Assembly: GCA_903936865.1 (NCBI GenBank)
Contig: CAIZXK010000151.1
Coordinates: 1 to 34,709, forward strand
DNA from: an uncultured Bacteroidales bacterium
GTDB lineage: Bacteria; Bacteroidota; Bacteroidia; Bacteroidales; JACABE01
Direction: 5' to 3'
DNA length: 34,709 bases
The translations under genes and the position numbers were made by a program. Below the pieces are notes generated by a model. That model did no database searches, had not been told where the DNA came from, and worked only from the letters and a program-made list of their open reading frames with translations. Below, in pieces: positions 21,671 to 23,963 of this stretch (its first letter is position 1; every line of letters begins with the position of its first letter).

Positions 21671-21717
21671 AAATAAGAAACAGCCATTAATCAAAAACTA
21701 ATGGCTGTTTCTTATTT
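21671..21717. terminator. Terminator hairpin with perfect 19-bp stem
   Basis: AAATAAGAAACAGCCATTA ... TAATGGCTGTTTCTTATTT, 9-nt loop, just after the M16 stop. Confidence 0.83.
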
Positions 21718-22005: not shown

Positions 22006-22104
22006 AGTGAGTTATTATAGGACTATTTATAATAGTCATTTATATATCTGTATTACTGCTTATTATTTGTTTAATGAATTTTATAGTGAGTTATAATAAC
22101 TCAC
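22006..22104. promoter_or_regulatory. Candidate activator (enhancer) sites upstream of sigma54-like promoter
   Basis: AGTGAGTTATTATA (22006-22019) and AGTGAGTTATAATA (22085-22098) match 13/14; the second lies in perfect dyad GTGAGTTA-TAA-TAACTCAC (22086-22104). A separate dyad GACTATT-tat-AATAGTC is at 22021-22037. Confidence 0.5.
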
Positions 22105-22166
22105 CAGTTTCTTTTACAAATTATACAAAAAATATTATAATACAGAATATCAATTGATAAATAGTT

Positions 22167-22182
22167 TGGCACACATTTTGTA
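22167..22182 (+). promoter_or_regulatory. Sigma54-like (-24/-12) promoter
   Basis: TGGCAC-A-CATT-TTGT-A against consensus TGGCACR-N4-TTGCW, with T in place of C in the -12 GC. Predicted TSS ~22193. Confidence 0.5.
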
Positions 22183-22192
22183 TATAAGAAAT

Positions 22193-22280
22193 TGCTTATT
22201 CAAAATAAGTTAATAATTTTATATTTTATCTTTTATCTTCGAGGGGTTGGGGGCTGTCTATTTAGGCAGCCCTTTTTTTT
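22193..22280 (+). ncRNA. Candidate ~85-90 nt small RNA (alternatively a terminated 5' leader)
   Basis: Between predicted TSS and terminator: 5' hairpin CTTATT-CAA-AATAAG (22195-22209), AU/pyrimidine-rich linker, G-rich GAGGGGTTGG, terminator stem plus T8. No credible ORF. Confidence 0.5.
22251..22280 (+). terminator. GC-rich intrinsic terminator with no upstream ORF
   Basis: GGGCTGTC-tattta-GGCAGCCC-TTTTTTTT; more than 500 nt separates it from the M16 stop, which has its own terminator. Confidence 0.85.
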
Positions 22281-22294
22281 ATCCATTTTTATAT

Positions 22295-22302
22295 TATTTT
22301 TG
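22295..22302 (+). promoter_or_regulatory. Bacteroidota -7 box TATTTTTG for ade
   Basis: TAnnTTTG match 24 nt upstream of ATG 22326, downstream of the 22251-22280 terminator. Confidence 0.5.
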
Positions 22303-22325: not shown

Positions 22326-23963
22326 ATGATAACAAATAATTACAAGATATCTGGCAATATTGTAGATGTAGTAGCTAAGCGTATATTTAAGGGAATAATT
22401 ACTGTAGAAAATCAAAAAATAATATCAATTGTAGAAAATCAAGATGTAGAAAATCAATATATTATACCTGGTTTAATTGATTCTCATGTTCACATAGAAA
22501 GTTCTATGATTATTCCATCCGAATTTGCACGATTGGCAGTTATTCATGGAACTGTTGCAACTGTTTCTGATCCACATGAAATTGGTAATGTATTAGGAAT
22601 GAATGGTGTAAACTTTATGATAGAAAATGGCAGAAAAGTCCCCTTTAAATTCTTCTTCGGAGCACCATCCTGTGTACCGGCTACTCCGTTTGAAACTTCA
22701 GGAGCAAGTATTGATATTAATGATATTGAAAAATTACTGTCAAACCCTGAAGTTAAATATCTATCAGAAATGATGAACTTTCCAGGTGTACTTTTTGAAG
22801 ACACAGACGTAATGAATAAATTAGCTATTGCAAGAAAATATAAAAAACCCATTGATGGACATGCACCAGGATTAAAGGGAGAAGATGCAAGAAAATATGT
22901 AAAAGCAGGCATAACTACTGATCATGAATGTTTTACTACAGACGAAGCTATTGATAAAATTAATGGTGGTATGAAGATTCAGATTAGGGAAGGAAGTGCT
23001 GCCAAAAACTTTTCTGCTTTAATCGACTTACTTTCAACACATCCAGATGAAGTAATGTTTTGTTCCGATGATAAACATCCTAACGATCTTATGGATGGAC
23101 ATATTAATAAGCTAATAATTAGATCACTAAAATTAGGCTATGATTTAATTAGTGTTCTAAGAGCTTGTACATATATTCCTGTAAAACATTACAATCTTGA
23201 AGTTGGTTTGTTGCAAAATGGAGACTTTGCTGATTTTATTGTAATTGATAATACAGAGGATTTTAATATTTTGGCAACATTTATTAACGGTGAAAAAGTT
23301 GCAGAAAATGGAAAGTCACTTATTAAATCTGTAACAGAATTATCACCAAACTCTTTTAATGCTGATAAGATTTCAACTAATGACATTGCAGTTCCATTTA
23401 CAGGAAAAAAGATAAAAGTAATAAAAGCATTAGAAGGTCAATTAATTACCGAAAAAATCATCATTTTTCCAAAACATGATTCTCAAAATATTTTAAGTGA
23501 TGTCGAAAATGATGTATTAAAAATAGTTGTAATGAATCGCTATCAGAAATCAAAACCAGCAGTTGCTTTTATCAAAGGATTTAATTTAAAGAAAGGGGCA
23601 TTAGCTTCAACTGTAGCACACGACAGCCATAATATTATAGCTATAGGAACTAATGATGAAGATATGGTATCCGCAATTAATTTATTGATTGAATCTAAAG
23701 GTGGAATTTCCATTGCAAACAAATCAGAGAAATATCATCTGCCATTAACAGTTGCCGGCTTAATGTCAAATGAAGATGGATTTGAGGTTGCTCAGAAATA
23801 TGATTTTATGGATAAAAAAGCAAAAGAATTGGGATCCGGTTTGCAAGCTCCATTTATGACCTTATCCTTTATGGCATTGCTTGTTATTCCAGAACTAAAA
23901 CTAAGCGATAAAGGATTATTTGATGGAAATACTTTTAATTTTACAACATTAGAACAAATATAA
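22326..23963 (+). CDS. ade: Adenine deaminase
   Basis: YIIPGLIDSHVHIESSMIIPSEFARLAVIHGTVATVSDPHEIGNVLG; GHAPGLKGEDARKYVKAGITTDHECFT; C-terminal VAHDSHNIIAIGTNDEDM. Confidence 0.97.
   Translation: MITNNYKISGNIVDVVAKRIFKGIITVENQKIISIVENQDVENQYIIPGLIDSHVHIESSMIIPSEFARLAVIHGTVATVSDPHEIGNVLGMNGVNFMIENGRKVPFKFFFGAPSCVPATPFETSGASIDINDIEKLLSNPEVKYLSEMMNFPGVLFEDTDVMNKLAIARKYKKPIDGHAPGLKGEDARKYVKAGITTDHECFTTDEAIDKINGGMKIQIREGSAAKNFSALIDLLSTHPDEVMFCSDDKHPNDLMDGHINKLIIRSLKLGYDLISVLRACTYIPVKHYNLEVGLLQNGDFADFIVIDNTEDFNILATFINGEKVAENGKSLIKSVTELSPNSFNADKISTNDIAVPFTGKKIKVIKALEGQLITEKIIIFPKHDSQNILSDVENDVLKIVVMNRYQKSKPAVAFIKGFNLKKGALASTVAHDSHNIIAIGTNDEDMVSAINLLIESKGGISIANKSEKYHLPLTVAGLMSNEDGFEVAQKYDFMDKKAKELGSGLQAPFMTLSFMALLVIPELKLSDKGLFDGNTFNFTTLEQI

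Follow-up and report, generated by a model that had tools for sequence, protein, structure and literature searches.

Small RNA (sRNA) regulation in Bacteroidota is known chiefly from Bacteroides. Elsewhere, GlmY/GlmZ and CrcZ are controlled by sigma54 together with a two-component system, acting through GlrR and CbrB, respectively, and LhrC of Listeria is not sigma54-dependent. The Vibrio Qrr sRNAs (LuxO, sigma54) share with the locus described here several distal siblings, a sigma54 promoter, a two-component NtrC-type activator (a candidate in the present case) and a strongly conserved core (PMC4211561, PMC10162802). Unlike Qrr, the present sRNA belongs to another phylum and has no Rfam match: when the window (the whole 34,709-nt stretch of Bacteroidales DNA analysed) and six related loci were searched against Rfam, no family, Qrr included, was matched at gathering score; the Rfam hit to a known leader element that would have told against the initial annotation did not appear. 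Moreover, no Hfq was found in the five family genomes (the window's own genome, G000, and G001 to G004), and Qrr-type Hfq dependence is therefore ruled out. GlmY/GlmZ and CrcZ are likewise intergenic sRNAs under sigma54 and two-component control (PMC7073468, PMC8871633), whereas the window sRNA is smaller, has no Rfam match and shows no sign of RapZ/GlmS or Crc/Hfq involvement. LhrC is alike in being a multicopy sRNA under a two-component system (PMC4132741), and differs in its phylum and in the lack of a Rfam match for the window sRNA.

Within Bacteroidota, FopS and GibS of Bacteroides thetaiotaomicron (RbpB) are multicopy sRNAs whose 5' seed is unpaired and which carry a terminator hairpin, as here, but FopS has sigma-ABfr promoters and GibS a noncanonical promoter, whereas the window sRNA has a sigma54-type promoter (PMC11697453). 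Neither a Rfam match nor a sigma-A type or PM2 promoter linked the window sRNA to FopS/GibS; a sigma54 element was found instead. In the open-access literature searched, no sigma54/activator sRNA family or sigma54-dedicated sRNA circuit was described for Bacteroidota. A sigma54-driven RNA in this phylum is nevertheless not wholly unprecedented, because Rfp36 of Flavobacterium psychrophilum, a putative regulatory RNA, is listed downstream of a sigma54 motif; in the available part of that report it is a single table entry with no activator, enhancer site or family described, and the likeness is one of description only (PMC9723704). The present locus is a concrete case in which promoter, enhancer-like sites, candidate activator, RNA and terminator are all visible in the DNA.

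The RNA unit, its copies and its neighbours

A genuine gene for a small regulatory RNA very probably occupies positions 22194 to about 22280 of the window. Sequence comparison provides the evidence for the RNA unit and its conserved copies, for its promoter and enhancer-like sites, and for its co-occurrence with an activator. The features of the locus are as follows.

22008-22024, + strand: distal enhancer-like site (UAS) TGAGTTATTATAGGACT, about -160 from the -24 GG; de novo motif search, the weaker of the two window sites
22087-22103, + strand: proximal enhancer-like site (UAS), the perfect inverted repeat TGAGTTATAATAACTCA, at -81; motif search and leave-one-out
22165-22172, + strand: -24 element TTTGGCAC; the same in each of the six promoter-bearing copies, at a constant 30 nt 5' of the core
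22177-22181, + strand: -12 element TTTGT; from the alignment, GC in four relatives and GA in one
22193-22194, + strand: predicted transcription start; -24/-12 geometry, about 12 nt past the -12 element
22194-22280, + strand: small RNA of about 86 nt, predicted transcript; comparison of copies, no ATG-initiated reading frame
22194-22240, + strand: invariant core of 47 nt, GCUUAUUCAAAAUAAGUUAAUAAUUUUAUAUUUUAUCUUUUAUCUUC; identical in seven copies from four genomes
22195-22209, + strand: 5' hairpin CUUAUU-CAA-AAUAAG; single-sequence fold, invariant
22210-22240, + strand: AU/pyrimidine-rich stretch, predicted from folds to be mostly single-stranded, likely interaction region
22249-22280, + strand: intrinsic terminator and U tract; terminator scan, compensatory changes in three pairs
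22295-22302, + strand: Bacteroidota -7 box (TAnnTTTG) of ade, TATTTTTG; downstream of the sRNA terminator
22326-23963, + strand: ade, adenine deaminase, a neighbour outside the sRNA; TIGR01178, 604.7 bits

When a DNA search was run with positions 22150-22295, the unit was found at other loci and in other genomes with 81-100% identity (E = 1e-26 to 1e-41). Together with the copies in nzgw131, which came from a 26-mer scan, six promoter-bearing copies and one copy cut at its 5' end are known from four MAGs. The window genome G000 carries the window copy (contig C151) and a copy on C619 that is 100% identical over 22190-22279 and whose 5' side is cut by the contig end, and the 3' end of the unit lies at the start of C44. 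Copies were also found in G001 (C393, 85% identity), in G004 (C322, 88%, and C462, 81%) and in MAG nzgw131, which has two, one of them being locus L061. Among the five family genomes, the sRNA was present in G000, G001 and G004 and was not found in G002 or G003. When 85,462 species genomes, a set that may omit the window's own genome, were scanned for an exact 26-mer, the only matches were G001 (Loclat_bin-11079), G004 (Umea3p4_bin-1352) and nzgw131. The hosts of the family are a few freshwater and groundwater Bacteroidales genomes. In 398 sampled Bacteroidota genomes, a covariance model gave no hit at E <= 1e-4 apart from the window's own, nor did it reveal a member in the sampled relatives of the order outside the family; the viral contigs searched held no member either. 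Weaker matches to the model (E = 4e-4 to 0.01; G003, G004:C222, G031, G165, G202 and G243) were discounted, being mainly terminator in AT-rich DNA.

Compared to nzgw131, the window was 76% identical over the aligned flanks and ade DNA, and the 47-nt sRNA core was invariant. Identity among the copies ends at the predicted +1 and past the terminator, and in the 7-copy alignment the predicted +1 coincides with the onset of sequence invariance. Near-identical copies within one genome and contig ends falling inside some of the copies would fit a short mobile repeat (MITE-like) that carries a terminator incidentally. This explanation is very improbable, however, since identity is confined to the stretch from the predicted +1 to the terminator, the promoters of the copies share just their functional letters, the enhancer-like sites hold their position and not their sequence context, and the terminator stems co-vary; moreover, conserved terminal inverted repeats or a target duplication were not evident in the copy alignment.

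The initial annotation had claimed a discrete sRNA of about 85-90 nt, and an approximately 86-nt unit running from promoter to terminator does recur at other loci and in other genomes. The claimed layout was also borne out, with the promoter-like element, 5' hairpin, AU/pyrimidine stretch, G-rich run and terminator each at its place; the hairpin CTTATT-CAA-AATAAG was verified at 22195-22209. The terminator stem occupies 22249-22274 and is followed by the T tract, and the G-rich segment lies 5' of the stem. The sRNA terminator is one of three terminator-like sites in the region, compared to 0.5 expected. Its stem varies among the copies with no loss of pairing (100%), three pairs having changes in both strands of the stem, and its covariation score was reached by 0 of 500 shuffles and lay above every slid control. 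The covariation analysis that had been called for was consequently positive for the terminator, whereas the 5' hairpin gained no such support because it is invariant in every copy; for this hairpin, the covariation data neither support nor contradict the fold. The 92-nt fold had a z score of -3.25 compared to shuffles, and RNAalifold favoured a weak, mostly G-U helix (22229-22234/22241-22246). A small-protein reading was rejected: the RNA has no ATG and indels between copies at 22247-22248 break the frames, in keeping with the earlier statement that no credible ORF is present. The sRNA is thus a discrete, terminated, noncoding unit conserved independently of its neighbours, as is characteristic of a trans-encoded sRNA. 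As a separate observation, a strong 20-pair stem at 21673-21715 of the window, read as a - strand terminator, lies just behind the M16 peptidase gene.

The unit ends 46 nt before ade, and in nzgw131 the copy L061 also lies just upstream of ade, so that the window locus has an ortholog there. Both the proximity and the retained linkage would suit a terminated leader or attenuator of ade. Linkage to ade was found at these two loci only, however, and the other copies lie ahead of a gene for an S41 peptidase, behind an activator gene, downstream of an ORF called fumarase-like from reading its sequence, and between lpxD and a thioredoxin-fold gene. The comparison of ade-upstream regions proposed at the outset came out in part: one ortholog (L061) conserves the unit, and the ade-upstream DNA of other relatives from the whole-genome search was not homologous and did not carry the element. 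In addition, ade has behind the terminator its own -7 box, as the initial annotation had claimed, which follows the Bacteroidota consensus TAnnTTTG (PMC9723704) and has TATCTTTG in its place in L061. Because the copies adjoin unrelated genes, the sRNA is not read as an ade leader, an explanation to which we give only a minimal chance.

Promoter, enhancer-like sites and candidate activator

All six promoter-bearing copies contain TTTGGCACN4TTTG exactly 30 nt before CTTATTC. The window promoter, TGGCACACATTTTGTA at 22167-22182, has GG at 22168-22169 and GT at 22180-22181. The sigma54 -24/-12 promoter initially proposed is thus conserved in relatives with a fixed spacing to the core. The -12 GT over which doubt was raised at the same time is real in the window; of the six copies, four have C in place of this T and one has A. 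Throughout the window genome TTGGCACN4TTTG occurred six times, compared to 0 for the reversed control pattern, and rpoN, the absence of which would have told against a sigma54 reading, was found there (PF00309, 52.1 bits). A sigma54-like promoter was also seen a few tens of nt before the start codon of OmpH/Skp-like genes, so named from the start of their sequence, in three genomes (L083 in G002, L098 in G000 and L103 in G003), which suggests that TTGGCACN4TTTG is a working sigma54 element here.

With its GT, the window promoter may be weaker than the others. The family could be real and its window copy in decay, with a promoter that is weak or silent, since this copy alone has GT at -12 and its distal enhancer-like site is weak. 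Its core and terminator are intact, however, its proximal enhancer-like site is a perfect palindrome, and GA is found at -12 both in another copy and in the sigma54-like promoter of the OmpH-like gene in the window genome; we regard decay of the window copy as unlikely.

Upstream of the promoter, the 17-bp inverted repeat TGTGTCAnnnTGACACA occurs twice, 80-185 bp away, in 6/6 promoter regions. A de novo motif search of the 220 bp upstream gave the palindrome TGTGTCATAATGACACA, with two sites in each of the six regions and a motif objective of 194 compared to 108.5 +/- 5.2 in shuffled regions. The consensus used for pattern scoring was composed after the sites had been viewed, and the less biased test is the de novo leave-one-out, which recovered the best site of each region and was reached by 0 of 300 shuffles. 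Five of the six promoters have a proximal site at -81 to -85 (that of L048 being very weak), and in all six regions a distal site falls between -142 and -184. Among 26 TTGGCACN4TTTG places in the five genomes, upstream sites scoring at least 10/14 were found at the sRNA promoters and at one other, marginal place in apparently coding DNA. The paired inverted repeats are probably the binding sites of one dedicated two-component activator.

The gene immediately 5' of the sRNA in G001, on the same strand, encodes a response-regulator/Sigma54_activat/HTH_8 protein. Close relatives of this protein were found in G000 (74%) and G004 (63%), and G002 and G003 have just paralogs at <=45%. In a maximum-likelihood tree the G000, G001 and G004 activators formed one group with support of 100/100; with three rows and long branches, the tree shows this grouping and not its history. 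The activator clade is therefore present in the three family genomes that carry the sRNA and absent, like the sRNA, in G002 and G003, an association drawn from five genomes and one adjacency. In G004 the activator gene follows a multi-PAS histidine kinase gene. No sRNA copy was found beside the activator gene within the assembled contig in G004 or G000. In G000:C297, three enhancer-like sites (L066:1519-1632) follow the activator gene, where G001 has the sRNA's own sites. Past them, at about 1768-2240 of L066, where a copy of the sRNA might be expected, a stretch starting GTGCGTGGGCTTGTCC is similar to the beginning of a group II intron; a gathering search of this stretch against Rfam gave no match.

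Proposed circuit and mode of action

These findings argue with good confidence for an apparently new sRNA family under sigma54/activator control. Its multiple copies, the pairing of its enhancer-like sites and its tracking with one activator clade go beyond the initial annotation. The sRNA is most likely a two-component, sigma54-activated, Hfq-independent and multicopy regulator that would work in the manner of Vibrio Qrr without Qrr homology. We infer its transcription, the binding of the activator to the enhancer-like sites and its mode of action as follows. A sensor histidine kinase would phosphorylate the NtrC-type response regulator (REC-AAA-Fis HTH), which would occupy the paired inverted repeats (17 bp each, 80-185 bp upstream) and cause RNA polymerase with sigma54 to open the promoter TTTGGCACN4TTTG. 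The transcript (about 86 nt, 22194-22280) would stop at its own terminator and, with no Hfq in the genome, would act in trans; the working part of the sRNA is likely its AU/pyrimidine-rich segment, which is invariant and mostly unpaired. This segment would most likely pair with A-rich translation-start regions of mRNAs and cause repression, and the sibling copies would add dosage. On a wider scale, there is a slightly better than even chance that sibling sRNA genes make up most of a small regulon under a dedicated two-component/sigma54 activator in Bacteroidales. Such a circuit would resemble that of Qrr and would have evolved independently in a lineage without Hfq. The system would make it possible to study the action of sibling sRNAs where Hfq is missing and to ask if the Qrr logic arose independently.

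Base pairing is, on balance, the probable mode of action. Small target screens of low power gave nothing clear. When the complement of AAGATAAAAGATAAAATAT was searched for, the exact matches were sRNA copies only, and two matches with 2 mismatches (L114, G001:C250, and L120, G000:C358) were rejected as targets, their coding strand being identical and not complementary to the RNA. These two loci appear to be homologous coding starts of a signal peptide with TTTTATCTTTTATCTT-like letters on the sense strand, as in the unpaired region of the sRNA, probably by chance. Duplex energies against 51 translation starts were on average worse than those of shuffled RNA and pointed to no target; the ade translation start was worse still than this average, and ade is not favoured as a pairing target.

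CrcZ and CsrB keep their proteins away from mRNAs. The same sigma54/activator-controlled sRNA might instead be a protein sponge whose UUUUAU(C) repeats, situated in the unpaired segment, titrate an RRM-type RNA-binding protein from mRNAs. We consider this rather unlikely, as the 47 nt are fixed here, whereas sponge RNAs usually tolerate drift between binding sites, and no RRM_1 protein was found in G004, a carrier of the sRNA. It would be consistent with the three spaced UUUUAU units within the invariant region, with the presence of RRM_1 proteins in G000 and G001 where there is no Hfq, with the many copies, which fit a dosage-driven titration, and with the binding of multicopy sRNAs by RbpB in Bacteroides (PMC11697453). 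Pairing with A-rich translation starts is favoured over the sponge, and the invariant 47 nt offer a strong handle for identifying the partner, be it RNA or protein.

Two TTTGGCACN4TTTG promoters were seen in G003, which is of the same genus and lacks the sRNA (L087, G003:C9:70885-70899, - strand; L100, G003:C36:10032-10046, + strand; near position 1500). They have a different upstream repeat (TGACATTTAAGTGACA / TGTCACTTAAATGTCA) and no reading frame just downstream, and L087 has a terminator-like hairpin about 100 nt on. They may be a second family of sigma54 sRNAs, a hint that circuits of this kind are recurrent. Separately, five copies of TTTGGCACGGTATTTG were noticed in G004 (L086, L091, L095, L102 and L107, on contigs C165, C236, C262, C375 and C483). 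They have tandem-repeat-like DNA upstream and are followed by a short CATCCTTTTTTT...AAAAAGATG hairpin and a T run, upstream of long ORFs with signal-peptide-like starts.
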